Positions 2,657 through 32,513 are shown, counted from the stretch's first letter. The stretch is 33,330 bases of DNA from a virus (IMGVR_UViG_3300048925_000213:1-33330); one strand, 5' to 3'. Numbers and translations are program-made. The notes: generated from the letters alone by a model not told the origin.

Positions 2657-2668
2657 CAGGTATACGAT

Positions 2669-2896: not shown

Positions 2897-2916
2897 CATC
2901 GTTGGGAGCGGCTTGC

Positions 2917-3189
2917 ATGTTTACTGAAGAGAAAACATCTTGGGAGCGGGAAATGTTGATCCGCGAATCAATTGAAAGCGCCGAAAAAGGTTTTACCGTT
3001 CAGCTTAAAAATGGTTCGCGTATCTATATAACACCAGACAGCCCGACAATTGATTTGATTGTCTATGGCCTTGAAAAGTCAATCAGGGGAAATCATGAGC
3101 GTGCACGTATGACGTTCATTGATTTTCTTTATTACTGGCATGAAAGGCTGTTCAGACAGATAAAAAGAAAACCTCGCACCACTCATTAA
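2917..3189 (+). CDS. Early phage protein, unknown function
   Basis: The 90-aa protein has an acidic N-terminal half (EKTSWEREMLIRESIESAEKG) and a helical C-terminal half ending in a basic tail (RLFRQIKRKPRTTH). The ATG at 2917 is preferred because GGGAG lies 8 nt upstream. An in-frame TTG at 2902 has no comparable site. I do not recognise a family. It sits in line with the early operon, 20 bp after the Fil-like gene. Confidence 0.6.
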   Translation: MFTEEKTSWEREMLIRESIESAEKGFTVQLKNGSRIYITPDSPTIDLIVYGLEKSIRGNHERARMTFIDFLYYWHERLFRQIKRKPRTTH

Positions 3190-3210
3190 TTAATCCGCAT
3201 TAAAAAACAT

Positions 3211-3225
3211 CGGCATTTTTTGCCG
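3211..3225 (+). terminator. Short hairpin in early operon, possible attenuator
   Basis: CGGCA and TGCCG pair around a TTTTT loop, followed 20-25 nt later by a T-rich stretch. The stem is short and the T-run is displaced, so this may be a weak attenuator or nothing. It lies in the only sizeable gap (3190-3257) in this part of the early operon. Confidence 0.25.
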
Positions 3226-3257
3226 GGGCTTCGTTTTGCCTTTTTCAGGAGGTAGTT

Positions 3258-3482
3258 ATGTCGGTCAAGTCAATAAAGCTGGATAGCGAGATAAGCGATC
3301 CAGAGTTTGTGGCAATAAGCGCCAGCGCCCGCAAGGGTGAACGCGTTCACCTTCTTGGCATGCTGCGAATTCGCATGGCCCAACTGAAAAAGGAAAGCGC
3401 CACCTCTGAAGAGATTTTTTCATCCGTCGAGCAGTGGATCTGCAACCGCGAAATAACCAATAGTGAGGACAAAAACCAATGA
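3258..3482 (+). CDS. DUF2732-like small phage protein
   Basis: The 74-aa protein has a strong ribosome-binding site (AGGAGG, 3247-3252). The central helix ARKGERVHLLGMLRIRMAQL resembles small P2-group early proteins annotated DUF2732. No function is known for that family. Its TGA overlaps the ATG of the next gene in an ATGA junction, so the two are translationally coupled. The family call is tentative. Confidence 0.6.
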   Translation: MSVKSIKLDSEISDPEFVAISASARKGERVHLLGMLRIRMAQLKKESATSEEIFSSVEQWICNREITNSEDKNQ

Positions 3483-3727
3483 ACAACGTCATGTTAAATG
3501 TGCATCCACGTCTTTCAATAGCTTGCAGTGCGCCATTGCATGTATTCCTCAGGGCCGCCGCAGCCCTGAAATGCTTTGCTCGCGGTCGGCGCAACTTCTC
3601 CCGCGTCAAACCGCACTCCTATCTTGTGATCCGTATTGGCCGTCGCTGGCGCTTGCTCAGCAAGAACGGCGGCGCTCAGTGGCGACTTCTGACCCATGAA
3701 ACCTACAACCAGGAGTTTCGTAAATGA
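3479..3727 (+). CDS. Small basic phage protein, unknown function
   Basis: The 82-aa protein is Arg- and Ala-rich and ends in SYLVIRIGRRWRLLSKNGG followed by QWRLLTHETYNQ. I recall this ending from several enterobacterial phage early proteins of unknown function. It overlaps both neighbours by ATGA junctions, which supports real translation. A class of phage cell-division-inhibitor-like proteins carries a similar ending, but I cannot confirm the link. Confidence 0.55.
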   Translation: MNNVMLNVHPRLSIACSAPLHVFLRAAAALKCFARGRRNFSRVKPHSYLVIRIGRRWRLLSKNGGAQWRLLTHETYNQEFRK

Positions 3728-3918
3728 GCTACTCACCTGAATACATCAAAGGTGCCATTGCAGCGCTTAACGAAGTTAAAGCCAGCGGCCTAGCAATGGC
3801 AATGCATGTAGGAATTATTCACGGAAAGGAGTCCGGTGAGGGGGTGAAGAGTTTGTTTGATAGTGTTGCTGATCCGCTGATCGGGAAATACAAAACAGCG
3901 GGGACGAAAGATGATTAA
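3724..3918 (+). CDS. Small early phage protein, unknown function
   Basis: The 64-aa protein begins in an ATGA overlap with the gene before and ends 8 nt inside the methylase gene. It is a mostly helical, weakly hydrophobic sequence (YIKGAIAALNEVKASGLAMA) with no motif I recognise. Tight overlaps on both sides show it is part of the early operon and may couple translation of the methylase. Confidence 0.55.
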   Translation: MSYSPEYIKGAIAALNEVKASGLAMAMHVGIIHGKESGEGVKSLFDSVADPLIGKYKTAGTKDD

Positions 3919-4876
3919 GTCACCTCTGAAATGGGCGGGCGGCAAGACGCGTGTTATGCCGCGACTGCTCAAGCATTTGCCGAAAGCTGATTGCCTGATT
4001 GAGCCGTTTGTTGGTAGTGGGGCTGTATTTATGAATACGGAATACCGCCGCTATGTGCTTTGCGACAGCAATCTGAATTTGATCAACTTTTTCCGTCAAT
4101 TAACAGGCCGCCTGGAAGATACGATTGCCGGTTGCCGCTGGCTTTTCAAAGGCGGAAATAGTGCCGATGAATATTACAAGCGACGTGCTGAGTTTAATTC
4201 ACTTGCTCAAAAAGCGGACTCTGATCCGGACGCAGCATTACTTCTTGCTTCCTATTTCCTGTACCTGAATCGCCACGGATATAACGGGCTATACCGCGTT
4301 AATCAGAAAGGTGAATTTAACGTTCCTTTCGGCAAGTATGCCGAGCCTTACTTTCCTGAAGTGGAAATGCGCTTATTCGCCGAAAAGGCTAGCGACACAA
4401 AAGCAGTCTTTATCCATAGTGATTTCCGCCAATCTATCCCTGACGTTATGCAACTCGCGCATGACGCGGTGATTTATTGTGACCCGCCCTATATCCCTGC
4501 GAGCGACACCGCCAATTTCACCGCCTACGGCAAGCCATTTACCCTGGATGATCACCGCGCTCTGGTGGCGGCTCTTGTGGCTGTCAACCGTCAGTACGCC
4601 ACCCGCTCGATCATCTCAAACAGCGATACGCCTGAAACACGCGAAATTTATTCCGCCTTCAACCTTCACTCTCTGAGTGTCCGTCGTTCCGTGAGCGCCA
4701 AAAGCCGCGATATGGCTGGCGAGGTTATTGGCGTTCTTCGCGTGTGTGATGGCTGTGACCGTGCTGGCGGTGGTTGCTGCCCGGATTGTGGACCGGTAAT
4801 GGGTGATGCGACTTACGCCGGTATGTTTTTAGGCTTTGACCCTGCCCAGGGCTGTGAAACGCAGGAGCCTTTCTGA
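3911..4876 (+). CDS. dam: DNA adenine methylase, Dam (D12) class
   Basis: The 321-aa N6-adenine methyltransferase has PLKWAGGK (residues 5-12) and FVGSGAVF (33-40) for S-adenosylmethionine binding, RHGYNGLYR (121-129) and the catalytic DPPY (191-194). Dam-type enzymes methylate GATC, though the target here is inferred. An unusual C-terminal extension carries Cys279, Cys282, Cys289, Cys290 and Cys293, which looks like a zinc ribbon and may add DNA binding. Methylation in the early operon could protect phage DNA from restriction or affect phage promoters. No cognate restriction gene is nearby. The gene overlaps both neighbours. Confidence 0.92.
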   Translation: MIKSPLKWAGGKTRVMPRLLKHLPKADCLIEPFVGSGAVFMNTEYRRYVLCDSNLNLINFFRQLTGRLEDTIAGCRWLFKGGNSADEYYKRRAEFNSLAQKADSDPDAALLLASYFLYLNRHGYNGLYRVNQKGEFNVPFGKYAEPYFPEVEMRLFAEKASDTKAVFIHSDFRQSIPDVMQLAHDAVIYCDPPYIPASDTANFTAYGKPFTLDDHRALVAALVAVNRQYATRSIISNSDTPETREIYSAFNLHSLSVRRSVSAKSRDMAGEVIGVLRVCDGCDRAGGGCCPDCGPVMGDATYAGMFLGFDPAQGCETQEPF

Positions 4877-8725: not shown

Positions 8726-8767
8726 GATTCCGGCAAATACCGTCATTTCCGGCAGTGTTGGCCATAC

Positions 8768-8817
8768 ATCGAGTACCGTCATTTTTAACAGTGCTGCAGG
8801 TTGTTAAAAATGACGGT
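8768..8817. repeat. Inverted repeat before the second adenine methylase; copy 1 of a dispersed element
   Basis: The arms accgtcatttttaaca (8775-8790) and tgttaaaaatgacggt (8802-8817) pair perfectly over 16 bp with an 11-nt loop. There is no T-run, so this is not a normal terminator. The left part (8768-8799) recurs at 25129-25160 with 29 of 32 bases identical. Both copies border cargo genes. Confidence 0.7.
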
Positions 8818-8838
8818 GCCAGCTGAGGACGAAAGAAA

Positions 8839-9775: not shown

Positions 9776-9833
9776 CTTCATCAGTTGACTTCATTAATGA
9801 TGCGCGCAATAATGACTTCATAAAGTGACTTCG
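9773..9833 (+). promoter_or_regulatory. Four TGACTTCAT repeats, probable hicAB operator
   Basis: TGACTTCAT occurs at 9773-9781, 9786-9794 and 9813-9821, with a variant TGACTTCG at 9826-9833. The copies form two pairs, each with 13-nt spacing, and the pairs are 40 nt apart. They end 11 bp before the hicA start. HicB antitoxins bind DNA and repress their own operons, so these are the likely sites. Confidence 0.6.
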
Positions 9834-9844
9834 TGAGGCAGGGA

Positions 9845-10120
9845 ATGAAAGAGAAGGTTTCATCGCTACGGAAGAAGCAAAAAAGTACGCTTGAGCAGAT
9901 ATTTAAAACGCCCGTTCAGTCGGGCATTAAATGGGCTGATATCGAGTCACTGATCAAGGCGCTGGGAGGGGAAGTAAAAGAGGGGCGCGGTTCCCGCTGT
10001 AAGTTTATCCTTAACGGCAGCATCGCTAACTTTCATCGTCCCCACCCCTCACCAGATACGGACAAAGGCGCAGTAGTTAACCTGCGCGACTGGCTTGAAA
10101 GCACAGGAGTTAAGCCATGA
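9845..10120 (+). CDS. hicA: HicA-family mRNA interferase toxin
   Basis: The 91-aa protein has the HicA fold pattern: a helix for strand-end binding (WADIESLIKALGGEVKEGRG), then SRCKFILNGSIANFHRPHP and NLRDWLESTGVKP. HicA toxins have a dsRNA-binding-like fold and cleave mRNA. The catalytic His of short E. coli HicA (in GSNH) is not at the same place. Here GSRCKF occupies it and His residues follow in FHRPHP, as in the longer phage and Pseudomonas-type branch. It overlaps hicB by 4 nt (ATGA). The ATG at 9845 is preferred to a GTG at 9833. Confidence 0.85.
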   Translation: MKEKVSSLRKKQKSTLEQIFKTPVQSGIKWADIESLIKALGGEVKEGRGSRCKFILNGSIANFHRPHPSPDTDKGAVVNLRDWLESTGVKP

Positions 10121-10476
10121 GCAAACCATCAACACCGAATACCATTGATATCGCCGGGCAACCCGCCATTATCAACTACGTGCCGGAGCTTGGCGCTTTT
10201 CGCGGCAAGTTTCTGGGGCTGACCGGATATTGTGATTTTGTCTCAGACAGTATCCAGGGGCTGAAAAAAGAAGGTGAGATTTCACTGCGTGAATATCTTG
10301 AGGATTGCAGTGCGGCGGGAATTGAGCCGTATGCGCGGCAGGAAAAAGTTAAAACATTTACGCTACGCTACCCGGAATCGTTTGGTGAGCGCCTTAATCA
10401 GGCTGCGGCTGAGCATGAAACATCAGTCAATACCTTCATTATTGAGACATTAAACGAACGAATGAAACACGCCTGA
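10117..10476 (+). CDS. hicB: HicB-family antitoxin
   Basis: The 119-aa protein has an N-terminal HicB domain (INYVPELGAFRGKFLGLTGY) that binds and blocks HicA. A C-terminal ribbon-helix-helix segment (VKTFTLRYPESFGERLNQAA) should bind DNA. The toxin-first gene order and the 4-nt overlap are typical of hicAB. It probably represses the operon through the TGACTTCAT repeats. As prophage cargo the pair may stabilise the lysogen or abort infection by other phages. A strong terminator follows 14 bp after the stop. Confidence 0.87.
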   Translation: MSKPSTPNTIDIAGQPAIINYVPELGAFRGKFLGLTGYCDFVSDSIQGLKKEGEISLREYLEDCSAAGIEPYARQEKVKTFTLRYPESFGERLNQAAAEHETSVNTFIIETLNERMKHA

Positions 10477-13724: not shown

Positions 13725-13790
13725 CTGCCCTCCACCGTTTATGGAGTGAAGATTACCCCGCGCGCGATCCCGCTATCGCCCCCTTTATGG

Positions 13791-13808
13791 TCTGGCCTTC
13801 CTCCGACA
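13791..13808. promoter_or_regulatory. Ogr-type activator box between P and O
   Basis: TCT-N12-ACA matches the P2 Ogr/Delta consensus TGT-N12-ACA at all but one fixed base. It read-matches again on the other strand as TGT-N12-AGA. The surrounding bases (GGTCTGGCC, then GACAACAAAA) recur at 31007-31031 between FI and D. The box centre is about 76 bp from the P start and about 84 bp from the O start, which suits activation at about -55 in both directions. Confidence 0.65.
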
Positions 13809-13883
13809 ACAAAACCTCGTTGAGACAGCAAGTTACGCTCTGCCATCATGGCCGTACAGAAACCACTCAACAGGATTATCGAC

Positions 13884-18985: not shown

Positions 18986-19456
18986 ATGCTGAAAGCTGAT
19001 TCACTGCGCGATGCCCTGACCCGTGCAAACAAATGGTGCAGGGCCAATCCTGAAGCCTTCACCGTTTTTGTGGAAGAAGGGAATATCGAGACGACCGGCG
19101 AAACGCCGTCGTTTATGTACCGCTATACCCTGGTGCTGTTTGTGATGAACTTTGCCGGTGATATTGATGATTTCACGCTGCCGTTAATGGCATGGCTCTG
19201 GCACAACCAGCCCAGTCTACTGCTGAACCCGGAGAAGAACCGGGACGTTAAATTTACGACCCTTATCAACAACGACGATACCGCCGACATTCTGTTTGAA
19301 ATGCCGCTGTGCGAGCGCGTGAAGGTCACTCTGGATGCGAATGGCATTCCCCGGGCGGAGCATTTACCGGAACCTAAGCCGCGCATCCCGTCAGCAGACG
19401 GGGACTGGAGCACCATCTTTGAGGATGTGACGTGGGAGGCTGACGCGCATGAGTAA
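18986..19456 (+). CDS. R: Tail completion protein gpR
   Basis: The 156-aa protein matches P2 gpR in length and pattern (MLKADSLRDALTRANKWCRA, DFTLPLMAWLWHNQPSLL, DILFEMPLCERVKV). It acts at the head-proximal end of the tail so that the tail can join the head. AAGG precedes the ATG. The end overlaps S by 8 nt. Confidence 0.92.
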   Translation: MLKADSLRDALTRANKWCRANPEAFTVFVEEGNIETTGETPSFMYRYTLVLFVMNFAGDIDDFTLPLMAWLWHNQPSLLLNPEKNRDVKFTTLINNDDTADILFEMPLCERVKVTLDANGIPRAEHLPEPKPRIPSADGDWSTIFEDVTWEADAHE

Positions 19457-20087
19457 CGATCTCTTCCGTGAACTGGATCAGGTATTCAGCGACATACTCG
19501 CGGGCACCTCGCCGGGCGGACGTGTTCGCACTGCCCGCGCTGTTGGCCAGGCGCTGCGTAAGAGCCAGCAACGGCGCATAAAAGCGCAGCAAAACCCGGA
19601 AGGTTCGCCGTATCCCGCCCGCCGCCGCAGGGTGCTGCGTTCTCAGCAGGGTATTGTGTTTGTCTGGCAGGGTGAGATCCGTCGCCTGAAAAACTGGCAC
19701 GGTGGCCGGGGGAAATACGGGCGCACCATCACTGGCTTTGACGAAGAACGAAATAATATCCGCACGTTTTACCGCAGCGATATTGAACGTTACATCGAGA
19801 TCAATACGCGCTCAGTACGCCGCAATACCACAAAAAAAGTGCCGATGTTTCAGCGGTTGCGAGGCTTTCGCTTTCTCAAAATGCGTGCCGATGCTGGCGG
19901 CACTTCCGTGGGTTATGACGGTGTGGCCGCACGCATTGCGCGTGTACACCAGTACGGCCAGCGCGACCAGGTCGGGCCGGGTGCTTTTGCTAAATATCCG
20001 GTACGTGAGCTTCTGGGCTTTACCGCTGGCGATGAACAGATGATTACGGAACAGGTAGTTAACAGCCTGGGGAGTGCCACACGATGA
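19449..20087 (+). CDS. S: Tail completion protein gpS
   Basis: The 212-aa protein of the phage virion morphogenesis family has landmarks RARRVLRSQQGIVFVWQGEI-like basic stretches, FQRLRGFRFLKMRA and RIARVHQYGQRDQVGPG. P2 gpS is shorter (150 aa). Extra sequence here lies around residues 75-115 (HGGRGKYGRTITGFDEERNN). It works with gpR at tail completion. It overlaps R and, by ATGA, V. No late promoter gap is seen between S and V, unlike P2, which has a separate V promoter. Confidence 0.88.
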   Translation: MSNDLFRELDQVFSDILAGTSPGGRVRTARAVGQALRKSQQRRIKAQQNPEGSPYPARRRRVLRSQQGIVFVWQGEIRRLKNWHGGRGKYGRTITGFDEERNNIRTFYRSDIERYIEINTRSVRRNTTKKVPMFQRLRGFRFLKMRADAGGTSVGYDGVAARIARVHQYGQRDQVGPGAFAKYPVRELLGFTAGDEQMITEQVVNSLGSATR

Positions 20088-20665
20088 GCGCTGAACTGAT
20101 CCGCCTGCTGGAAAATATCCTCCGCGTTGGCGTCGTTATTGCCGTTGATGAAGAGAGCTGGCGCGTGCGCGTGCAAAGCGGCGAACTTCAGACCGACTGG
20201 CTGCGCTGGAACACCACGCGCGCCGGGGCATTCAGTATCTGGGTGCCGCCTTCAGTCGGTGAGCAGGTCTGGCTTGGCTGTATCGGTGGCAACCCTGAAA
20301 CAGCGGTCATTATTGGCAGTCTCTACAGCAACGATCACCCAGCACCGGGCAGCAGCCTGAAAGAGATTGTGCTGACAGCACCAGACGGCGCGTCTTTCCG
20401 CTATGACGCAGAGGTCAGCGCGCTGGATGCTCAGGGCATGAAAACGGCACATATCAAAGCTTCTGCCAGCGTCACGCTTGAAACGCCGGTGGTTGAATGT
20501 ACCGAACACCTGAGAGCGCGGACGTTCGAACTGACGGAGGGCGGCACGATGAAGGGCACTATCACTCATTCAGGCGGTTCACTGTCGTCTAACGGGGTGA
20601 CGCTGCATTCACATGTGCATGGTGGTGTGCAGGGTGGCAGCAGCAACACAGGAGGGCCGAAATGA
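20084..20665 (+). CDS. V: Baseplate spike protein gpV
   Basis: The 193-aa protein compares with 211 in P2. It has an OB-fold N-terminal part (WRVRVQSGELQTDWLRW, then VPPSVGEQVWLGCIGGNPE), a beta-helical stem with repeated short strands, and a tip with His175, His177 and His179 in LHSHVHGG. HxH motifs at the tip bind an iron ion in P2-type spikes. The trimer punctures the outer membrane. The gene overlaps S and W by ATGA. Confidence 0.93.
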   Translation: MSAELIRLLENILRVGVVIAVDEESWRVRVQSGELQTDWLRWNTTRAGAFSIWVPPSVGEQVWLGCIGGNPETAVIIGSLYSNDHPAPGSSLKEIVLTAPDGASFRYDAEVSALDAQGMKTAHIKASASVTLETPVVECTEHLRARTFELTEGGTMKGTITHSGGSLSSNGVTLHSHVHGGVQGGSSNTGGPK

Positions 20666-22444: not shown

Positions 22445-24283
22445 ATGGCAGTGAAATTTAAAACAGTTATCACCAAGGCGGGCGCAATTAAACTGGCTGC
22501 AGCTACCATGCCGAACGGGAAGAAAGTTAACCTGACCGTTATGGCTGTGGGGGACGGTGGCGGCGTGCTACCGACGCCGGACCCGAATCAGACGAAACTC
22601 ATCAATGAGGTCTGGCGTCACGCACTCAACAAAATCAGCCAGGACAAAAAGAATAAAAATTATGTCGTGGCGGAGTTGTTGATCCCGCCTGAGACTGGCG
22701 GTTTCTGGATGCGTGAATTAGGTCTTTATGACGACGCCGGCACGCTGATCGCGGTCGGTAACATGGCCGAAAGCTATAAGCCAGCGCTCGCGGAGGGGTC
22801 CGGGCGTGCTCAGACCGTGCGCATGGTCATCATGGTGAGTGATATCGAGTCAGTCGAGCTGACGATTGACAGTTCAACGGTGATGGCAACGCAGGATTAC
22901 GTCGACGATAAGATTGCAGAGCATGAGCAGTCACGCCGTCACCCTGATGCCACGCTCACCGCAAAGGGCTTTACACAGTTAAGCAGTGCAACTGACAGCG
23001 TGTCTGAGTCGCTCGCTGCGACGCCGAAAGCGGTTAAGGCGGCATATGACCTTGCCAAAGGGAAATACACCGCTCAGGACGCTACCACCGCGCAAAAGGG
23101 TATTGTCCAGCTAAGTAGCGCAACCGACAGTACGTCTGAGTCGCTGGCAGCGACGCCGAAGGCGGTAAAGGCAGCGTATGACCTTGCCAAAGGGAAATAC
23201 ACGGCTCAGGACGCCACCACGGCGCAAAAAGGTATTGTCCAGCTAAGTAGCGCAACCGACAGTACGTCTGAGGCGTTAGCTGCGACACCGAAAGCCGTTA
23301 AAGCTGCGAATGACAACGCTAACGGGCGAGTGCCTCTAACAGGGGGAACCGTGACAGGTAATTTGTCTGTTAATGGACAAATTGCAGTGGGCGATTCGCG
23401 AAAGCTTGCAGTGTATTCCTTAAACACATCGTCACTTGCCGGAGCTGTCACTCTGTGGGGAAATGTTGACAGGCCGACAGTATTAGAGTTTAAGGATGCT
23501 AACGGCTATCACTTTTATTCACAGCGAAATGTAAATGGTTCCGTATCATTCAGTTTTAATGGTGCGGCAAATTTTGTTGGTGAATTGAGCGCATATTATT
23601 ATAAGGCAACTCAACGACCAGGCGCAGGGGCGTTTGCCAGTCAATACACTAGCCTGGCCCCGTTCTACCATGAATTTTCAAGCGCAAGTGCCTCTGAATA
23701 TAACCCGCTATGGAAGCAGAAACATACTGCTGGTCACATGTGGTCTGGTGGAATGCTTGTAAATGCAGAAAGTTTCGTTATTCAGTACATAGGTTCAAAC
23801 GGAACTAACGTACTTTTCACTTTTGCAAAAGATGGTCAGTTTACCCCCGGCAACTGGGCTAATTTCGACGCCAGATATCAGGCAAAAGGCAGTTACACCC
23901 CAGCAGGGCAGGCTTACACCAAAGCGGAAAGTGATGCTCGTTTTCAGCCTAAAGGCAACTATACGCCTACCGGAACGGCTTATACCAAAGCGGAAAGCGA
24001 CAGCAAATATCAATTAAAAGGCAATTACGCGTTAGTCGGCGCGTCCTATACGAAGGCTGAGTCTGATGCGCGGTATGGGGTTATAAATGGTATTCGCCGC
24101 GGGGGTCAACAAATCAGAAACCCGACTGATGCCTGGTTTGGCAACTGGGAGTCACCTGCCGGTTGCGTAGTGACGGGGATTCAAATGGACGGCAGAAGTG
24201 ATGGCCGAAAGCTTGGCGTTTATTTCCGTCAAATGCAGTACCTGAATAAACAAACTAATGCATGGGTCAACATCGGGGATTAA
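22445..24283 (+). CDS. H: Tail fibre protein gpH
   Basis: The 612-aa fibre has a P2 gpH-like N-terminal attachment domain (residues 1-165, VKFKTVITKAGAIKLAAATM). Residues 175-295 are three 44-residue fibre repeats beginning GFTQLSSAT or GIVQLSSAT. After a unique shaft and tip region come YTKAESD repeats (about 495-540) and a C-terminal receptor-binding head. The repeats suggest length change by recombination, and the AT-richer 3' part suggests exchange of the receptor-binding end. It determines host range and is matched to the assembly gene that follows, whose start lies 2 bp past its stop. Confidence 0.93.
   Translation: MAVKFKTVITKAGAIKLAAATMPNGKKVNLTVMAVGDGGGVLPTPDPNQTKLINEVWRHALNKISQDKKNKNYVVAELLIPPETGGFWMRELGLYDDAGTLIAVGNMAESYKPALAEGSGRAQTVRMVIMVSDIESVELTIDSSTVMATQDYVDDKIAEHEQSRRHPDATLTAKGFTQLSSATDSVSESLAATPKAVKAAYDLAKGKYTAQDATTAQKGIVQLSSATDSTSESLAATPKAVKAAYDLAKGKYTAQDATTAQKGIVQLSSATDSTSEALAATPKAVKAANDNANGRVPLTGGTVTGNLSVNGQIAVGDSRKLAVYSLNTSSLAGAVTLWGNVDRPTVLEFKDANGYHFYSQRNVNGSVSFSFNGAANFVGELSAYYYKATQRPGAGAFASQYTSLAPFYHEFSSASASEYNPLWKQKHTAGHMWSGGMLVNAESFVIQYIGSNGTNVLFTFAKDGQFTPGNWANFDARYQAKGSYTPAGQAYTKAESDARFQPKGNYTPTGTAYTKAESDSKYQLKGNYALVGASYTKAESDARYGVINGIRRGGQQIRNPTDAWFGNWESPAGCVVTGIQMDGRSDGRKLGVYFRQMQYLNKQTNAWVNIGD
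22967..23295 (+). repeat. 132-bp tandem repeats in the tail fibre gene
   Basis: Two full units (22967-23098 and 23099-23230) and a partial third (from 23231 to about 23295) encode 44-residue fibre repeats. Units 2 and 3 are nearly identical at the DNA level over their shared part, so copy number can change by recombination or slippage without loss of frame. Confidence 0.85.
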
Positions 24284-24285
24284 AT

Positions 24286-24801
24286 ATGGATAAGTTTATT
24301 AATCCAGTTATTTATAATTATGAACATATTGAAGTCAGCGGAATAATGCGTACCGGTCTTTATTATAAGGATGAGCAAGGCCGGGACTGGTATGAAACCT
24401 TAACAGGCTGGAAAGGCGCGGTTTCTGTGGATAGTGACGGGATTGTCGTTGCTTACGAACATGATGTTTCGTATATGGGGATGGAGGAAGGCCGCAATGT
24501 CTATGAGGTCGATCCCCTCAGCGTGCCGGTAGATGTGTTAGGGAATTACAAATATGCGGATGGTGTTTTTTATGATATCCGCCCTGATGCGGCAACGCTT
24601 GCCGAACAAACGCGAAAACAGCTTATTGAGGATGCGGGCCTTACAATTTCAGTCCTGCAGGATGCCGTTGATTTAGGGATGGCAACAGAAAACGAGGTAG
24701 AGCAGTTACGCTTATGGAAAACTTACCGTATCAGACTGAGCCGAATCTCACCGGCGACAGCGCCCGAAATTGAATGGCCTGAACCACCTTCGAACGATTA
24801 A
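24286..24801 (+). CDS. G: Tail fibre assembly protein gpG
   Basis: The 171-aa Tfa-family chaperone folds the end of gpH. Family features are the N-terminal DKFINPVIYNYEHIEVSGIM, YYKDEQGRDWYETLTGWKGA and a C-terminal helical segment (EVEQLRLWKTYRIRLSRISP). ATG 24286 has GGGG upstream. It is the last gene of the rightward late operon. Confidence 0.92.
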   Translation: MDKFINPVIYNYEHIEVSGIMRTGLYYKDEQGRDWYETLTGWKGAVSVDSDGIVVAYEHDVSYMGMEEGRNVYEVDPLSVPVDVLGNYKYADGVFYDIRPDAATLAEQTRKQLIEDAGLTISVLQDAVDLGMATENEVEQLRLWKTYRIRLSRISPATAPEIEWPEPPSND

Positions 24802-24805
24802 GAAA

Positions 24806-24826
24806 AAGCCCGCTATAAGCGGGCTT
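24806..24826 (-). terminator. Terminator for leftward transcripts from U and the microprotein
   Basis: AAGCCCGCT-tat-AGCGGGCTT is followed in the leftward direction by TTTCT. In the rightward direction there is no T-run. It lies at the stop of the 40-aa leftward gene and just after G, so it mainly ends leftward transcription. Confidence 0.7.
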
Positions 24827-24947
24827 AATCATAGGGGCATTCTTCATAGTCTTTTTCTGTTTCATCACCTGCAAACAGTCTTAGCCAGCAAAAGCCAAAT
24901 GCACACCATGCAGCCAGACCACCAACAACCCAGATTAAAATTGTCAT
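24825..24947 (-). CDS. 40-aa membrane microprotein, cargo gene
   Basis: The product starts MTILIWVVGGLAAWCAFGFC and continues WLRLFAG, then an acidic tail (DETEKDYEECPYD). A hydrophobic helix spans about residues 2-25. GAGGGAA lies about 6 nt before the ATG. The gene is leftward between G and the FI-U block. P2 carries its cargo gene Z/fun leftward at the matching spot. The size and membrane nature suggest superinfection exclusion or a related effect on the host surface, but this is inference. Confidence 0.5.
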   Translation of the reverse strand: MTILIWVVGGLAAWCAFGFCWLRLFAGDETEKDYEECPYD

Positions 24948-25007
24948 TCTCGTTCCCTCATTAGTGGCGCAACGATAACGACAATAGCCCTTCATTGATA
25001 ATGGATT

Positions 25008-25048
25008 AAAACGATCGAATTTCATTAATCGATCGGTCAAAACGATCG
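25008..25048. promoter_or_regulatory. GATC-rich repeat block upstream of the 40-aa gene
   Basis: AAAACGATCG occurs at 25008-25017 and 25039-25048, 31 bp apart, with ATCGATCGG between them. Three Dam sites (25013, 25031, 25044) fall within 35 bp. The block lies 61-101 bp upstream of the leftward microprotein and could be an operator sensitive to methylation. The rest of 24948-25233 holds no gene. Confidence 0.35.
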
Positions 25049-25128
25049 TACCGCATCAGCTACCATCACCCGCCGAACGATTTCGCGGCCGTTCCACATG
25101 GCCGGTTTCAACCGTGCTGGCCACTGGT

Positions 25129-25160
25129 ATCGAGTACGGTCATTTTTAACGGTGCTGTAG
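25129..25160. repeat. Copy 2 of the dispersed 32-nt element
   Basis: 29 of 32 bases match 8768-8799. The bases that follow (25161-25180) also resemble the right arm of the inverted repeat at 8802-8817, but are decayed, so the hairpin here is imperfect. The element lies between cargo and the inverted tail-gene block. Confidence 0.7.
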
Positions 25161-25194
25161 CACTGTCAGTTATGGCGGTGTACTCCTGAAGATG

Positions 25195-25214
25195 AAGCGG
25201 GCAAATGCCCGCTT
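25195..25214 (+). terminator. Terminator facing rightward into U
   Basis: AAGCGGGCA-aa-TGCCCGCTT is followed by TAGTTTTA. It would stop transcripts from the G operon before they run antisense through U. It also lies 20 bp past the U stop, but has no T-run in that direction. Confidence 0.65.
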
Positions 25215-25233
25215 TAGTTTTATGTGGAAGCCG

Positions 25234-25722
25234 TCAGAACAGGCCCGACAGCGTACCGCTCGCAGAGTTATATGCAGAGGTGGCTTTATCCTTCAGCCCA
25301 GAAAGCAGATCGCCAACGGATGAGGCTTGCAGGCGTTCGCGTAAATCTTCATCACAGCGCTGAAAACTGATCGAGAATTCTATTTTTTTCGCCTTTCCGT
25401 AGCGGTCAAATTCTGTATGCGTGGCCTGAAGCCCGGTCAGCACATACATGCCGTAAATCTGCCCCGCACCGCTGATTAAGGGCCAGGGACGCCCGGTGTA
25501 TGCCTGCGTTGCCAGAACGGTAAGAGATACGTCACCGCCCGTAATTTCAGGGTAAAGCACCCCGTCAAGGTTGATCTGCGTCTCCCCAGCGCCGATGTAC
25601 TGCCATTTTGCCGATCGGTTGATGCGGTCATTTTTCACATGCCGCCAGTTAAGCGAATGGCGCAACTGCTGATAAGGCAGTGTCTTCAGTTCAAAAACGA
25701 ACATCCCGTATATCATCATCAT
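25234..25722 (-). CDS. U: Tail protein gpU
   Basis: The 162-aa protein compares with 159 in P2. The landmarks are FVFELKTLPYQQLRHSLNWR, KWQYIGAGETQINLDGVLYP and SISFQRCDEDL. It acts in tail tube and baseplate assembly after the tape measure. The C-terminus (DKATSAYNSASGTLSGLF) is a gpU-type tail. It is the last gene of the leftward FI-U operon and starts 14 bp after the T stop. Confidence 0.94.
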   Translation of the reverse strand: MMMIYGMFVFELKTLPYQQLRHSLNWRHVKNDRINRSAKWQYIGAGETQINLDGVLYPEITGGDVSLTVLATQAYTGRPWPLISGAGQIYGMYVLTGLQATHTEFDRYGKAKKIEFSISFQRCDEDLRERLQASSVGDLLSGLKDKATSAYNSASGTLSGLF

Positions 25723-25736
25723 AATGTTGCTTCCCC

Positions 25737-28724
25737 TTAATCTCTGTCTTTGAAACTGCCACGGTTGAGCCGTTCACGGCGGGCCAGTTCGGCACTTACT
25801 TGTTCGGCGACAATCCTGCCAATTTCGCGCGCGTCCTGCCGGTCAACGCCGTGCAGATGTACGTGGATTTCGCCCGTAAAGCCGCCACTGGCAACCGGGA
25901 TATTGCTGGCGCTGCGGCTGACTGGCAGAAGTTCAGCCTGTTTAACGGGAAGTGATGCCGCTACCACTGCGGGACGTGCGCTTAACCCGTTGTTCCTGAC
26001 CGTGCTGGCCAGCTGCGACTCCTTCCATTCCCCACGAACGGCCAGAGCACGCGGCAGGTTTTTAAACACGATATCGCCGGGGCCGATCTTCTTCGTGTTG
26101 TCGGCTGTCGTTTTGGTGTTGCTGTCGATACTCTGCAACCTGCGCATAGTGCCGTTATCGCCGGTCAGCGGGGATGTGGGCTGCGGTGCTCCCGGTGGTG
26201 GGGTGTTCCCGGTATTGTTTTTACCTGTTGAGGCAGGCGACCAGTTCCAGCCCTTTTGCACCATTTTTTTCTGTTGCGGATCCCACTCCCACATAACAGG
26301 GTCTTTTTTAAGGCTTTCAGCCTTCAGGCGTGCAGCTTCCAGACCAGAAGGGATAAGTTCGAGTTTTTCCAGAACCCAGCCAATGCCTTCCATGAGGGTT
26401 GTCAGCGGTAACAGCAGCAACTGAAGTGCACCCCCCAGGACTTTACCGAAGGTTTCCCCTGCTGATGCGCATTTATCAAGGGATTCGCGGCTACTTTCTA
26501 CAGGTGTTAAGAGTTTTGAAAACCAGTCCCAAACCTTGCTAACAGCAGCACCAATTGCTGAGAAGACCAGCGTTAAAGTGAAAAAGGCGTCGCGGAAAGG
26601 AGCCAGTTGCTGCATAACCCCACTAAAAAAGCCGGTGAAAAAGGCTTTTATCTGTTCCCAGTACCGCCAGATCAGTAGCCCGGCAGCAATAAACGCGGTA
26701 ACTAACAGGCCGATCGGACTAAAGACCAGTGACAGCGCTGTACCCAACGTAGATACCGAAGCAGTAATCATGCTCCATATGGCTGGTAAACCTGTCAGGC
26801 GAAGGGCGAGCATTCCGAGGTTTTTAGTTAATGCTCCCAGCGCGGCACCGGGCGCGAGAAATGCCCCCATAAGTGCGCCACGCATAACAGGGATGATGGT
26901 TGAAACGCCGCGCATTTTCCCTGCTATCGAGCCGAGAACTGGCCCCCACCCGCGCACGCTTGCCATTGCCGGGCCGGAAGCCGTGCCGAGTGTTCTGAGA
27001 GCGGAAATCGTTCCGGTTATGCCTCTGCCCCCTGTCAACAGGGTAAAACCTAACTGGAGTTTAGCCAGAGGGCCCATTAGCAGGCCGATCGCCAGCGATG
27101 TGCCACCAATGGCGGCGGTCAGTGCCAGAACGCTGCCGCCGACAACCAGCAAGGATTGGGCGAGCTTCGGATTTTCCTTCGCCCACTGCGTCATATTCCC
27201 CACAACGTCACTCAGTCCCTGAGTCAGGCCGCGAAGCTGATTGTTGACGAGATCGTTAATCTGGATGCGGAAGCCCTCCCAGGCGCTGTCCAGATTTTTG
27301 AGATCGCCATCAAGGTTATCCGCCATTATTTTGGCGGCTTTCTGTGCCTCTCCTTTAGCATTTTTCAGTGCTTCCAGTAACTTCTGGAGTTCTCCGCTCC
27401 CTGCCGACATAACCAGAGCCTGCAATGACTTTGACGCCTCTTCACCGGCAATATCTTTGAAGAAAGAGAGCTTATCGGTGTCGCCGTATTTGCTGATTTT
27501 TTTATAGAGTTCAGTAAGAACCTCTTCAGCAGGGCGCATTTTCCCCGTGGCGTCAGCAACGTCTACGCCCAGTTCTTTAAGCGCAGTTTTTGCCCTGCCG
27601 GTTGGCGCGGCAAGGCGTGAAAACGCGGCCTGTAAACCCGTACCGGCGATACTCCCGCGCAGACCCACGTTTGCCATTACGCCGATCATGGCTGTAGTCT
27701 GCTCAACACTGACGCCAAGATTGGAAAGGCCTGTCCCGGCGTACTTCATCGCCTCACCGATATTTTGCAGATCGGTGTTGGTTCGGGTAAATGCGCCGGT
27801 TAATACATCACTGACGCGATCCATTTCTTTGGGATCCAGACGGAACTGAGACAGTATGTTTGAGCTGATATCGGCACTTTCGCCTAAATCCATCCCCCCT
27901 GCCAGCGCCATATTGAGTACGCCAGGCAATGCAGCCTGTATAGCCTGCGGAGTGAAACCGGCCATCGCGAGAAACGCCTGTCCGCTGGCTGCATCAGTCG
28001 TGGTGAACTGCGTTTCACCGCCCAGCTTTTTGGCTTGATCGCGGAGTGCGGAAAAGTCTGCTGAGCTTTTATCTATGCGGGTTAGCGCCTGAACACGGGA
28101 CATTTCACGGTCAAACCCAACGGCGGGGGATAAAAAGCGCCCCGCTACGTAACCGGCAGCAGTTGCCCCGGCAACGGCCATCGTGCCCCCGCCGCGAAGT
28201 TTGCCAGCCGTTTGCTGCATCTGGTCATAGCGCGCACGTGCCTGCGTGACCGCAGCAAGCTGTCGCCGTTCCCGCTCAAGTGTCCGGTTGTACTGTTCAG
28301 TACGACGAATGGCGCTCTGTATGGTGCGGTCACTGCCGACCAGCGAAACACCGTGGCTGCGCAGTGCCTGTGAGGCGGCGCGAAGCTTGACCATTTCCTG
28401 TGTGCGTGCAGAGTTAAGGCGATCCAGCTTTGCGGCCAGCGCTGCCATATGGGCTTTCTGCTTATCTGTAAGCTGTGTACCTTCCCGCTGCGCCTGATTC
28501 AGGCCTTCAAGCGTCCGGCTGGCGTCGTCGATTTTGCGGGAGGTCTTTTGTACGCTGTCGCGCAGACGGTTGAACGTGCGGGACTGACTGTCCAGATCTT
28601 TAATACTGGACTGCGTTTTTTTGAGGGATTCAGACAAACCGCCCGCACTCTGGCGGGCGGCATTGACCGGGCGGGTAAGTTTATCGATCGCGCTGAACGC
28701 GACGCGGATATTAAGGCTTTTCAC
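25737..28724 (-). CDS. T: Tail tape measure protein gpT
   Basis: The 995-aa protein compares with 815 in P2, which implies a somewhat longer tail. The order is: N-terminal coiled coil (SLKKTQSSIKDLDSQSRTFN onward), a conserved tape-measure domain (about residues 200-410, DKSSADFSALRDQAKKLGGE), then hydrophobic segments (LLVVGGSVLALTAAIGG, LSLVFSPIGLLVTAFIAAGL) and a Pro/Thr-rich linker before the C-terminus. The start is uncertain. GTG 28724 has GGAG 9 nt upstream. GTG 28730 and GTG 28760 are in frame. All overlap E'. Confidence 0.93.
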   Translation of the reverse strand: MKSLNIRVAFSAIDKLTRPVNAARQSAGGLSESLKKTQSSIKDLDSQSRTFNRLRDSVQKTSRKIDDASRTLEGLNQAQREGTQLTDKQKAHMAALAAKLDRLNSARTQEMVKLRAASQALRSHGVSLVGSDRTIQSAIRRTEQYNRTLERERRQLAAVTQARARYDQMQQTAGKLRGGGTMAVAGATAAGYVAGRFLSPAVGFDREMSRVQALTRIDKSSADFSALRDQAKKLGGETQFTTTDAASGQAFLAMAGFTPQAIQAALPGVLNMALAGGMDLGESADISSNILSQFRLDPKEMDRVSDVLTGAFTRTNTDLQNIGEAMKYAGTGLSNLGVSVEQTTAMIGVMANVGLRGSIAGTGLQAAFSRLAAPTGRAKTALKELGVDVADATGKMRPAEEVLTELYKKISKYGDTDKLSFFKDIAGEEASKSLQALVMSAGSGELQKLLEALKNAKGEAQKAAKIMADNLDGDLKNLDSAWEGFRIQINDLVNNQLRGLTQGLSDVVGNMTQWAKENPKLAQSLLVVGGSVLALTAAIGGTSLAIGLLMGPLAKLQLGFTLLTGGRGITGTISALRTLGTASGPAMASVRGWGPVLGSIAGKMRGVSTIIPVMRGALMGAFLAPGAALGALTKNLGMLALRLTGLPAIWSMITASVSTLGTALSLVFSPIGLLVTAFIAAGLLIWRYWEQIKAFFTGFFSGVMQQLAPFRDAFFTLTLVFSAIGAAVSKVWDWFSKLLTPVESSRESLDKCASAGETFGKVLGGALQLLLLPLTTLMEGIGWVLEKLELIPSGLEAARLKAESLKKDPVMWEWDPQQKKMVQKGWNWSPASTGKNNTGNTPPPGAPQPTSPLTGDNGTMRRLQSIDSNTKTTADNTKKIGPGDIVFKNLPRALAVRGEWKESQLASTVRNNGLSARPAVVAASLPVKQAELLPVSRSASNIPVASGGFTGEIHVHLHGVDRQDAREIGRIVAEQVSAELARRERLNRGSFKDRD

Positions 28725-28922
28725 TGTCACTGGCTCCACTTCGGACAGCCGCCCGCTCACGCCAGGCTATGACTTCGCCCAGTTCCATCGTGAAGACTTC
28801 AGAGGGCGGCCAGTTGAAAACAACCGCGATATCAGCAACCAGATCGTCGATCAGGTCGAACCGCAGGAGTGTTACTGATTCTCCGTCTCCGCCTCGCTCG
28901 ACGCTCCAGACCCCGCAGGTGT
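28711..28922 (-). CDS. E': gpE' extension, read by -1 frameshift from E
   Basis: After the slippery T TTT TTG at 28923-28929 the -1 frame stays open to a TAA at 28711. It encodes 70 residues, including DLIDDLVADIAVVFNWPPSE and MELGEVIAWRERAAVRSGAS, the hallmark of the GpE family. It has no credible own start, so it is made as a 159-aa E+E' fusion, as in P2. In P2-type and lambda-type tails such fusions chaperone the tape measure protein. Its end overlaps the start of T. Confidence 0.88.
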
Positions 28923-29189
28923 CAAAAAAGGGACGAGCGCTTCAGACAGGCTGACAAAATCGCGGGTATCCATTTCGTTGATTTCAGTCTGTTTGAGGCG
29001 TGGTGACGTCACACGGGTCAGCAGTATCGCCACCGAATCCACATCCATGTTCATCACGTTGACAAGCTTCAGACCGCGCAGGGAGCCAGCCTGTTTGATC
29101 TCATCTGTGATCGTTACCTGAGTGATTTTCTCATCGCCGCGAACAACAGGTTTTGCCAGCGTAATGGCGTTATCGGTTTTCTTGCTCAT
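28872..29189 (-). CDS. E: Tail assembly chaperone gpE
   Basis: The 105-aa protein compares with 91 in P2. It starts MSKKTDNAITLAKPVVRGDE at ATG 29189 with GGAGT about 8 nt upstream and continues LTRVTSPRLKQTEINEMDTR, then DFVSLSEALVPFL. A T-run near codon 88 makes the -1 frameshift site. The zero-frame protein ends 16 codons later in a Ser/Glu-rich tail. The ratio of E to E+E' controls tape-measure assembly in related phages. Confidence 0.92.
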   Translation of the reverse strand: MSKKTDNAITLAKPVVRGDEKITQVTITDEIKQAGSLRGLKLVNVMNMDVDSVAILLTRVTSPRLKQTEINEMDTRDFVSLSEALVPFLTPAGSGASSEAETENQ

Positions 29190-29237
29190 TCTTGAATACT
29201 CCGGGCGGCACGGGTGTACCGCCACTTATCAGGTTAA

Positions 29238-29753
29238 TCAGTTACCCATTCCCAGCGCAGACGTGATGCGGTCAGGGTAGAGGTTTTTGCCATCTTTCTT
29301 GTAGATGAAGTTCAGCAGATCAAACTCAAACAGCGGCTTGTCGTCGATGGTGAGCCTGTAATAGGTGTTCTTCATCGTGTAGCTGACGGAGGTATCTTCT
29401 CCCTGCTTGCTTTCACCGCCATCCATTTCGGTGATACGTCCGCGCAGTTCGACCTCAACCAGCAGGCTTTCGCCATCGGTGTAATATTCACCGGCGAAGC
29501 GGAAGCGGGTTTCGTCGATATCGCCGCAGTAGTTCAGCAGTAGCGACTGAACCAGACCACCAACCACCATCGTGGTGTCCAGCGCGCCACTGTCCAGACC
29601 GAGATCCACCGCAGCGGAGCCAATCATCCCGCCGCCCTGAAAATCTTCAGTTTTACGGGTCAGTTTTGGCAGCGTCACGGAAGAGACTTTGCCGATGCAG
29701 TTGCTGCCGTTCACAAAGCAGGTGAACAGACGCAGTTTGTGAGGAACCGCCAT
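29238..29753 (-). CDS. FII: Major tail tube protein gpFII
   Basis: The 171-aa protein compares with 172 in P2. The landmarks are VPHKLRLFTCFVNGSNCIGK, RKTEDFQGGGMIGSAAVDLG and a C-terminal TRLTIDDKPLFEFDLL-like strand region. Hexameric rings stack to form the inner tube. Its ATG directly follows the FI stop with no gap. Confidence 0.95.
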   Translation of the reverse strand: MAVPHKLRLFTCFVNGSNCIGKVSSVTLPKLTRKTEDFQGGGMIGSAAVDLGLDSGALDTTMVVGGLVQSLLLNYCGDIDETRFRFAGEYYTDGESLLVEVELRGRITEMDGGESKQGEDTSVSYTMKNTYYRLTIDDKPLFEFDLLNFIYKKDGKNLYPDRITSALGMGN

Positions 29754-30935
29754 TTATGCACCTCCCAGGGAAGAAAACGCCGATTCGAAATACTCGTCCG
29801 TGAAGGTCTGGTAGAGTGTCAGATCTTCCATAGGCGGAACCGGTGTGTATTTATAGCGAATGCGTACCTGACCCTGGCGGAGACCGGTTGTCGGGTTATC
29901 CAGGATATCAAACCAGCATTCGGCACCAATTAGCCGCCCCAGCGTCACCAGCGAATTGAGTTTGCCGCTGATGCCGCTGACCACGTCCTTGACGTTGGCC
30001 GGGGTTAGCGGTTCGTCCACTGATTCAAATTGCGCCTCAGCGATACTGTCAGCCAGTATCTGTGCCGTTCGGGTATAAACCTCAAAGATATAATCTTTGG
30101 TGTCCGTAACGCGGTTGCCCCAGAACCGGAAACCGTTACGCTTGATGAGCGTCGTGATCTCCTTGTTGTTCAGTTCGTTCGCGTCGCTGTCTTCAGCCTG
30201 AAGGGACCAGAAAACATCCTGCGAAATACCCAGCACGTTCTTGACCGCCACGTTGGAAAGCGATTTATGCCAGCCCAGGTTGTTGTCAATCAGCGCACGA
30301 AGGCCGCAGGCATAGGCCGGGGCCGGGAAGATTTCATTTTCTCCGGTCTGCGGGTTGTATGCGATGAAGTCAGGCCAGATAAGCATTAGCTCACGATAGG
30401 CGAAGGTTGCGCGGTAGGCGATAGCGTCTGCCATCGTCGTGCAGCCGTAGCAACTGGCATAAACAAAAGCGCGCAGGTTCTGTGCAATGACACACAGCGC
30501 GGAGGTCACTTCTTCCGTGTCGTAGTCTGGTGCGGCCAGAATGCGCGGACGATAGCCTACCTTCTGTTCAGCCGTCAGAAATGCGTACATGCCGGTATAG
30601 CTGCCGTCTTCTGCTGTGCCACCCATGATGAGCTGCGACTGCGTTTTACCGCCTTCTTCTTCGGTAGCTGCTGCCACGCGCACAACGATGACCTTCGGGC
30701 TGGTCTGGTCAGCGATGGCTTTAAGCGTTTTGTACAGGGAGCCGGTTTTACCCGCCTTACCCAGTACATTGTTAACCCGCGTCAGTAACACGGGGGTATT
30801 CAGGGGAAAGGTATCTGCGTCGGCATCATCCGCCACGGCAACGACTCCAATGACACTTGATTCAATGTCATTGATGGCCGTTACCAGGTCGGTATTCTCC
30901 CGGACGCGTACACCGTGGAAACGTGTCTCTGACAT
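29754..30935 (-). CDS. FI: Tail sheath protein gpFI
   Basis: The 393-aa protein compares with 396 in P2. It has FPLNTPVLLTRVNNVLGKAG, YTGMYAFLTAEQKVGYRPRI, RELMLIWPDF, RNGFRFWGNRV and the C-terminal YKYTPVPPMEDLTLYQTFTD. It forms the contractile sheath. The ATG at 30935 is preferred because MSETRFHGVRV aligns with the P2 start. In-frame ATGs at 30944 and 30980 would lengthen it. It heads the leftward FI-U operon from the Ogr-box promoter near 31017, whereas in P2 this operon is rightward. Confidence 0.95.
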   Translation of the reverse strand: MSETRFHGVRVRENTDLVTAINDIESSVIGVVAVADDADADTFPLNTPVLLTRVNNVLGKAGKTGSLYKTLKAIADQTSPKVIVVRVAAATEEEGGKTQSQLIMGGTAEDGSYTGMYAFLTAEQKVGYRPRILAAPDYDTEEVTSALCVIAQNLRAFVYASCYGCTTMADAIAYRATFAYRELMLIWPDFIAYNPQTGENEIFPAPAYACGLRALIDNNLGWHKSLSNVAVKNVLGISQDVFWSLQAEDSDANELNNKEITTLIKRNGFRFWGNRVTDTKDYIFEVYTRTAQILADSIAEAQFESVDEPLTPANVKDVVSGISGKLNSLVTLGRLIGAECWFDILDNPTTGLRQGQVRIRYKYTPVPPMEDLTLYQTFTDEYFESAFSSLGGA

Positions 30936-31008
30936 GTTAGCCACCATTACGTTATTGAGTTCGCAGTGATAATCCCTCATGTCTGAACGCCACTCACGCT
31001 ATTGCGGG

Positions 31009-31026
31009 TCTGGCCGGACGGCGACA
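31009..31026. promoter_or_regulatory. Ogr-type activator box between FI and D
   Basis: TCT-N12-ACA, with the same flanks (GGTCTGGCC and GACAACAAAA) as the box at 13791-13808. The centre is about 82 bp from the FI start and about 72 bp from the D start. This near-symmetry suggests that one box serves both divergent late promoters. Confidence 0.65.
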
Positions 31027-31088
31027 ACAAAAACCGATTTAGTCTCTCCCGCGCGCGTGGGATCCTTCGCCGGAATAAGGGGGGAGGC

Positions 31089-32225
31089 ATGGCACTTACA
31101 GACCTGAAAAAATCACTTAACGACGCCGTCAGCAGCTATAACGATTCACTTACCGATGCTGTAAAAAGTCCGGGATTCAGCATTACGATGGGCGGCGAGG
31201 TGCTGACGCAGCTTGATGATCGGATCATGTCGCTGTCACTGACGGACAACAGGGGGTTCGATGCCGATCAGCTGTCCATTTCCATTGATGACAGTGACGG
31301 TATGGTTGCCCTGCCGCCGCGAGGGGCTGAGCTTGCCGTATCAATTGGCTGGCTGGGAGAGCCGCTGATCTACAAAGGGTTGTACACGGTTGATGAGGTT
31401 TCCCATGAAGGCCCGGCAGATACGATTGGCATTACTGCCCGCAGTGCTGATTTTCGTGAAGAGTTCAACGTAAAGCGCGAAGTCTCATGGCATGACGTGA
31501 CTGTCGAGCGAGTCGTGTCGGCCATAGCGCACCGTTACGGACTTAAGGCGCAAATCAGTGAAATGCTCATGGATATTGAGATTGATCACGCCGACCAGAC
31601 GCAGGAAAGCGATATGTCTTTCCTTACCCGCATGGCGGAAATGCTGGGTGCAATTGCCACCGTCAAAAACGGCAATCTGCTGTTTATTCTGCCTGGCGGC
31701 GGTGTAACCTCTGAAGGGAAGGCACTACCCTCTGCCAGCATTGACCGCACGAGCGGTGACCATCACCGCTTTCGTATTGCCGATCGGGATGCATATACTG
31801 GCGTTCGGGCCTACTGGCTGGATCTCAATTTTGGCAAAAAGAAGAAGGTCAGCGTTAAGCGCCGCAAGCCTGCAAAGCCCAAAAAAGATAAGAGCAGTAG
31901 CCGTGAGGGCGATTACATGGAGGGCGCAGACGGTAACGTTTATGTGCTGCGCAAGACCTACCAGAATGAAGAAGCGGCAAAACGCGCGGCGGCGGCAAAA
32001 TGGCAACAGCTTCAGCGTGGCGCGGCAGAGTTTTCGATCACCCTGGCGCGTGGCCGCGCTGAGCTATACCCCGAAATGCACGTCACGGTTAGCGGTTTTA
32101 AGGATGAAATAGATAATCAGGACTGGATCATTGCGCGTGCTGAGCACGTCATTGACGACAGCGGCTTTACCACCCGGCTGGAGCTGGAAGCGAAAATACC
32201 TGACTGGATAGCGGAAACTGAATAA
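31089..32225 (+). CDS. D: Tail protein gpD (hub/late control protein)
   Basis: The 378-aa protein compares with 387 in P2. It is a T4 gp27-like hub with MSLSLTDNRGFDADQLSISI, LPPRGAELAVSIGWLGEPLI and the conserved ADQTQESDMSFLTRMAEMLG. A Lys-rich loop (KKKKVSVKRRKPAKPKKDKS) interrupts the middle. GGGGGAGG precedes ATG 31089. In P2 it is the last gene of the FI-D operon. Here it stands alone in rightward direction next to FI. Confidence 0.94.
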   Translation: MALTDLKKSLNDAVSSYNDSLTDAVKSPGFSITMGGEVLTQLDDRIMSLSLTDNRGFDADQLSISIDDSDGMVALPPRGAELAVSIGWLGEPLIYKGLYTVDEVSHEGPADTIGITARSADFREEFNVKREVSWHDVTVERVVSAIAHRYGLKAQISEMLMDIEIDHADQTQESDMSFLTRMAEMLGAIATVKNGNLLFILPGGGVTSEGKALPSASIDRTSGDHHRFRIADRDAYTGVRAYWLDLNFGKKKKVSVKRRKPAKPKKDKSSSREGDYMEGADGNVYVLRKTYQNEEAAKRAAAAKWQQLQRGAAEFSITLARGRAELYPEMHVTVSGFKDEIDNQDWIIARAEHVIDDSGFTTRLELEAKIPDWIAETE

Positions 32226-32264
32226 AATGAAATGGAGTTCAACTCCCACAGGGGAGCCATCATT

Positions 32265-32513
32265 ATGTTCAGATGTCCATTTTGCGGCGCTATGGCCCGC
32301 ACCCGTACCAGCCGTAAAATAACCGATATGACAATCCGGCAATATCACCAGTGTCAGAATCTGGAATGTAGCCGGTCATTCACCACGCTTAACAGCGTGG
32401 AAAGGGAGGTAACAAAGCGTGCAGGTGCTGCACCGTTACCGCCTGACTTCATCCCACGCGATGCATTCCCTGCATCACATTACGGCAGAGACCAGCTTAA
32501 TTTGGCTCTCTGA
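32265..32513 (+). CDS. ogr: Late gene activator Ogr
   Basis: The 82-aa protein compares with 72 in P2. A zinc finger is formed by Cys4, Cys7, Cys30 and Cys35 in MFRCPFCGAM and QCQNLECSRSF. TRTSRKITDMT matches the Ogr family. It binds TGT-N12-ACA-type boxes and contacts RNA polymerase alpha to start late transcription. GGGGAG lies 8 nt before ATG 32265. It is 39 bp after D. The extra C-terminal length is Pro-rich. Confidence 0.95.
   Translation: MFRCPFCGAMARTRTSRKITDMTIRQYHQCQNLECSRSFTTLNSVEREVTKRAGAAPLPPDFIPRDAFPASHYGRDQLNLAL

Follow-up and report, generated by a model that had tools for sequence, protein, structure and literature searches.

An inverted tail-gene block as a fixed trait of a clade of P2-like phages

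We analysed a stretch of viral DNA of 33,330 nt (IMGVR_UViG_3300048925_000213:1-33330, hereafter the window), a P2-family prophage or phage in which a block of tail genes between G and D (FI, FII, E/E', T and U; 25234-30935) is read leftward, whereas in P2 the same genes are read rightward. A reading of the sequence alone had treated this inversion as an event particular to the phage at hand and had called for a comparison with its relatives. That comparison revealed instead an old lineage trait, the outcome which the reading itself had named as counting against it, since 180 of 180 relatives in the clade carry the block in the same orientation. The arrangement is thus real, old and fixed, and a regulatory reason for it is plausible. 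Very probably, a single ancient inversion of the block together with its late promoter pF founded the clade, with one shared activator box now driving the genes on both sides.

Many treatments take the order of genes in the P2 tail operon as a constant of the family, and the inverted clade breaks that order, once and cleanly. Its P88-like members alone are present in about a quarter of complete E. coli genomes. Although these genomes are public, the inversion is apparently unremarked in the open full-text literature that was searched, where we found no statement of it; for P88 and phiSM, the passages searched in the papers on them make no mention of it. The inverted block could also serve as a marker for taxonomy and annotation.

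Layout of the window and of its inverted block

Gene identities were assigned by Pfam and PHROGs profile searches, and order and strand by tblastn with P2 and window proteins. From left to right the window holds an integrase and a repressor, replication genes and a small accessory region, then the leftward pair Q-P, a rightward run from O to G, the leftward block U-T-E-FII-FI, and finally D and ogr, again rightward (Table 1). The tblastn strands were Q-, P-, O+, N+, S+, V+, J+, U-, T-, FII-, FI- and D+ in the window and J+, FI+, FII+, T+, U+ and D+ in P2, so that profiles and gene order both agree with the sequence-only reading that the FI-U block is inverted relative to P2 while G, D and ogr keep their direction. 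The FI start that it had placed at 30935 is supported as well: MSETRFHG aligns with the start of P2 FI, and the Ogr box then lies 82-83 bp away, as in P2. The mechanically called ORF and the phiT5282H annotation start FI 45 bp farther upstream. The D start at 31089 is preceded by a good ribosome-binding site, and the slippery heptamer between E and E' is kept, as expected of a functional operon.

Table 1. Coordinates of the inverted block, its neighbours and the predicted regulatory elements in the window
Feature	Position	Strand	Evidence
Ogr-type box, TGGTCTGGCCTTCCTCCGACAACA, between P (leftward) and O (rightward)	13788..13811	.	sequence match
G-type tail fibre assembly protein, last of rightward operon	24262..24801	+	phrog_136 6.6e-37; Pfam Caudo_TAP 1.9e-23
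Leftward terminator-like hairpin, for FI-U transcript	24806..24826	-	consensus match only
Rightward terminator-like hairpin, for G operon; near-identical in phiT5282H	25193..25216	+	terminator-like hairpin match
U, tail protein, last gene of inverted block	25234..25722	-	Pfam Phage_P2_GpU 3.7e-39
T, tape measure protein, 1007 aa	25737..28760	-	phrog_28 5.5e-180
E, tail assembly chaperone; E' by -1 frameshift	28872..29225	-	Pfam Phage_TAC_7 4.1e-8
Slippery site TTTTTTG, E to E', P2-type heptamer	28923..28929	-	sequence read directly; function inferred from P2
FII, tail tube	29238..29753	-	Pfam Phage_tube 7.2e-45
FI, tail sheath, first gene of inverted block	29754..30935	-	phrog_23 2.2e-122; Pfam sheath domains
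Predicted promoter core of FI, ATTATC, 44 bp from box centre	30968..30973	-	sequence pattern
Ogr-type activator box, GGGTCTGGCCGGACGGCGACAACA, common to predicted FI and D promoters	31006..31029	.	sequence match
Predicted promoter core of D, ATCCT, mirror position, 44 bp from box centre	31062..31066	+	sequence pattern
D, baseplate hub, original orientation	31089..32225	+	Pfam Phage_GPD 1e-17; phrog_52 5.3e-158
Ogr/Delta-type late activator, directly after D	32232..32513	+	Pfam Ogr_Delta 6.3e-17

With regard to family membership, the window has head genes of P2 type, Q-P pointing leftward and O-N rightward, together with the tail proteins FI, FII, E, T, U and D and the Ogr activator (Pfam, PHROG). 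P2 (Peduovirus) and 186 (Eganvirus) share these genes, the late activator family, a box about 82 bp from FI and a single box common to the divergent P and O promoters, but in both FI-U is co-oriented with G and D in a single F operon, with D translationally adjacent to U. In the window the contiguous, one-direction F operon FI-FII-E-T-U-D is absent, D being divergent from FI-U. Such an operon is typical of P2 but is no ICTV requirement for Peduoviridae, and four named genera placed in this family also lack it, so its absence does not bar membership.

At the left junction, the convergent terminators proposed from the sequence were recovered as terminator-like hairpins, one for each of the two operons. 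The region as a whole shows no clear excess of hairpins over shuffled sequence (14 against 10.8), and these two are its best G+C-rich ones. About half of the representatives have similar hairpins there, several of them usable in both directions. A 32-bp stretch is found with 91% identity at both 8736-8830 and 25125-25165; the copy at 8770-8820 lies within a long inverted repeat, CCGTCATTTTTAACA ... TGTTAAAAATGACGG, and similar sequence is also present at the left junction of phiT5282H. In ST16-OXA48phi5.4 a gene for a DUF262-domain protein and a hypothetical gene are inserted at the left junction (28611-30514 of locus L117), which suggests a cargo site.

Distribution and descent of the inverted arrangement

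Gene orientation was surveyed in five viral-contig scans with the sheath and D proteins of both phage kinds, in one bacterial-genome scan and in fetched phage records, and was readable at 429 loci, 180 inverted and 249 canonical; with some contigs fetched twice, the loci distinct by FI+D sequence number 141 and 245, respectively. FI is 55.3-100% identical to that of the window at inverted loci and 33.9-51.8% at canonical ones, with zero overlap and no exception. HP1 was left out, no FI homologue being detectable in it by the method used, and 17 loci were too short for a call. One locus (L108) was considered as an orientation conflict and rejected: its J match lies about 10 kb past D and probably belongs to another element.

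The inverted arrangement is found in named members of at least four ICTV genera, represented by the isolates phiT5282H (Novemvirus), 3LV2017 (Reginaelenavirus), P88 and phiSM (Xuanwuvirus) and ST16-OXA48phi5.4 (Reipivirus). The hosts named in the records of the clade include Enterobacter, Kosakonia, Klebsiella, Pantoea, Mixta, Erwinia, Serratia, Rouxiella, Edwardsiella, Citrobacter, Brenneria, Trabulsiella and Symbiopectobacterium. Among complete E. coli genomes, the divergent FI-D junction of P88 type, at least 80% covered, is present in 1,294 of 5,426. About 70 further E. coli genomes gave a partial match to the FI-D probe; among those shown, one is a remnant and others carry an internal IS30 insertion.

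The nearest named relative is phiT5282H (Peduoviridae), 91% identical in DNA along the 8.1 kb that reach from the capsid region to I; by megablast this identity extends over only 42% of the 19.3 kb compared. The proteins FI, D and U are 96-99% identical between the two, FI 97%, and phiT5282H has the same inverted block, the same FI-D box and a near-identical terminator by U; it differs in its tail-fibre and accessory genes and in an annotated FI longer than the one supported here. P88 (Escherichia; FI 76% identical) and phiSM (Citrobacter) share the inverted block, but their left junction holds a DNA invertase and a flipped fibre cassette, neither of which is present in the window. 3LV2017 (Klebsiella) and ST16-OXA48phi5.4 have the same block and box, with FI 74-78% identical, and differ at the left junction in their fibre and accessory genes. 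In the phiSM record (L448) the gene at the D position is named 'ogr/Delta-like' and the one at the FI position 'late control gene D' (2294-3403 and 3561-4745), probably a misannotation.

A tree of FI (92 rows) needs a single change of orientation, on a branch with support 100/100 and a stem of 0.75 changes per site, and when rooted on a distant canonical relative it nests the inverted clade inside canonical lineages. The trees of D, U, the capsid protein N and the terminase P likewise need one change each; N and P lie outside the block, and their trees hold only five inverted rows and no distant outgroup. Canonical orientation is also found in the outgroups VHML, Mannheimia, Wohlfahrtiimonas and Cardiobacterium; outgroups among which is VHML have FI-FII-E-T-U-X-D on a single strand, the same as J. 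Given the single change on the trees and the canonical distant outgroups, one ancient inversion in place is the best and simplest reading.

The J tree needs two changes, owing to a locus from Erwinia rhapontici (L099) that combines the inverted FI-U block with a canonical-type J and is thus a recombinant at the left breakpoint. At least one exchange of the module to the left of the breakpoint has therefore taken place. Mannheimia phage 1152AP (L123) departs from the tail order of P2 in another way, its T-type tape measure gene standing before V and not after E.

The activator box between FI and D

The FI-D gap of 153 bp holds a single Ogr-type box, in line with the shared box that the sequence-only reading had placed at the right junction. 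Its form is GGTTGT-N12-ACAACA, which is perfect in several relatives, whereas in close relatives of the window the left half is degenerate (GGGTCT). By a symmetric half-site score with a maximum of 10, 129 of the 141 distinct inverted loci reach at least 8, against 6 of 141 shuffled sequences; the deepest members (L387, L393 and L441) have weak scores. The spacing to FI is conserved, with the box centre 75-89 bp from the FI start at 135 of 141 inverted loci. For the corresponding box of canonical loci the distance to FI is 80-89 bp in 160 of 245 cases (82 bp in P2, 81 bp in 186), and the distance being kept as in P2 argues that the pF box moved along with FI.

Mirror-image promoter cores flank the box. 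Among these 135 loci an AT-rich core stands 44-45 bp from the box centre on the FI side at 118 and on the D side at 65, the latter by a strict pattern that leaves out the window's own ATCCT; at canonical loci no position is preferred for a core on the corresponding far side of the box. The layout at FI-D is therefore that of one two-fold symmetric box between divergent genes with equidistant cores on both sides, and it recurs in the clade between P and O, where both sides of the same kind of box have the core at 43-50 bp. In the P2 record, pO and pP have a single annotated activator site between their start sites, each of which is about 55 bp away from it; the 186 record likewise has a single site common to the divergent P/O (p12/pV) promoters.

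It had been argued from the sequence that D, cut off from its operon, needs a promoter of its own. A promoter-like element is indeed present at D, but the claim can be sharpened, as the box of the FI promoter appears to serve both sides. Because the mirror layout of the cores resembles that at P/O in the clade, in P2 and in 186, we think it most likely that one box drives both FI-U and D(-ogr), with Ogr binding to it and both promoters firing.

Origin and stability of the arrangement

In the scenario that we favour, one ancient inversion of pF and FI-FII-E/E'-T-U within Peduoviridae would have founded the clade to which the window belongs. One breakpoint would lie immediately beyond the right end of the tail-fibre/invertase cassette and the other between U and D, and the pF activator box, carried with the block, would have ended up between FI and D. 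There the same box may drive FI-U leftward and D(-ogr) rightward, with terminators where the two late operons converge. That one box could serve both sides would follow from the two-fold symmetry of Ogr-type boxes, which already serve two divergent promoters at P/O. Whether the symmetric box also acted as an evolutionary hinge, its two-way firing making an operon-splitting inversion viable at once so that it became fixed across at least four genera, seems to us an evenly balanced question. If it did, expression of sheath, tube and tape measure would have been split from that of the hub (D) and the activator (ogr). The clade offers a testable case of changing operon order under a symmetric activator site.

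As to the recombination event itself, the serine DNA invertase of the fibre cassette may have acted off target, its own site or a nearby sequence recombining with a quasi-site between U and D; this concerns the origin only and is compatible with the scenario above. Whichever way the block points, the invertase gene adjoins its left edge and keeps one position and direction with respect to the fibre genes (110-169 bp from FI at five canonical loci and 42-139 bp from U at seven inverted ones), which puts the left breakpoint at the edge of the invertible fibre cassette. No crossover-like site is left at the right junction, where age would have erased one, and ordinary illegitimate recombination accounts for the data equally well, so that we hold the involvement of the invertase to be possible but rather unlikely.

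Import of an already inverted block from another phage is considerably less probable. P2-family phages are mosaics, and the exchanged J region of the Erwinia rhapontici locus is a case in point, but the trees of FI, U, D, N and P agree on the clade and on a single change, and the spacing between box and FI is still that of P2; congruent trees and a conserved distance point to a common history of block and chassis.

It is very improbable that the block is an invertible segment, with the window caught in one state of a phase variation. The adjacent P2-like tail-fibre cassettes are invertible, and P88 is among the seven inverted loci with an invertase close to U, but the opposite state occurs at none of the 180 loci of the clade. 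In E. coli, 1,396 genomes contained the halves of a probe representing the flipped junction, in which U would adjoin D, but never in joined form, against the 1,294 genomes with the FI-D junction. In P88, crossover-like sites border the fibre cassette alone (23826 and 26897), with none at FI-D; those of SEN8 lie around its fibre cassette, apart from a single weak, isolated match at another position. An invertase is absent from the junction in the window, and no Gin-type crossover site was found at the FI-D junction or within the window. In agreement with the sequence-only reading, which had seen no clear inverted repeats at the two junctions and had judged the arrangement settled, the junctions share no exact repeat of 9 bp or more, direct or inverted. 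Its suggestion that both orientations might coexist in one culture receives no support from the 1,396 E. coli genomes with P88-like genes, none of which has a flipped junction. The inverted block is a fixed, vertically inherited trait and not a phase switch.

An assembly error at the junctions, which had been raised because such an error would remove the inversion and which could be thought of for a virus record from a large collection, is practically ruled out by the same order in the five isolates, in bacterial contigs and in the 1,294 complete E. coli genomes. Moreover, P88 is described as plaque-forming with a burst of about 65 (PMC5285337) and phiSM as active (PMC6456863), and the plaques and burst of P88 indicate that the inverted order is compatible with a working phage.

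Some further features of the window lie outside the tail region. A HicA-type toxin (9833-10120) followed by a HicB-type antitoxin (10117-10476) is encoded in the accessory region, which lies between the replication gene and Q. A full-length homologue of D12-type adenine methyltransferases is located at 3911-4876, and a short one at 8839-9543 matches only the C-terminal part of the family and is likely truncated. If O began at its first possible start, an ATG at 13848, it would overlap the promoter core of its own operon (13848-13881); the start annotated in phiT5282H, about 33 bp further on, is a better fit. Finally, S and V overlap (19449-20665), so that a separate promoter for the V operon, present after S in P2, would not fit, and the O operon of the window probably runs on to G.
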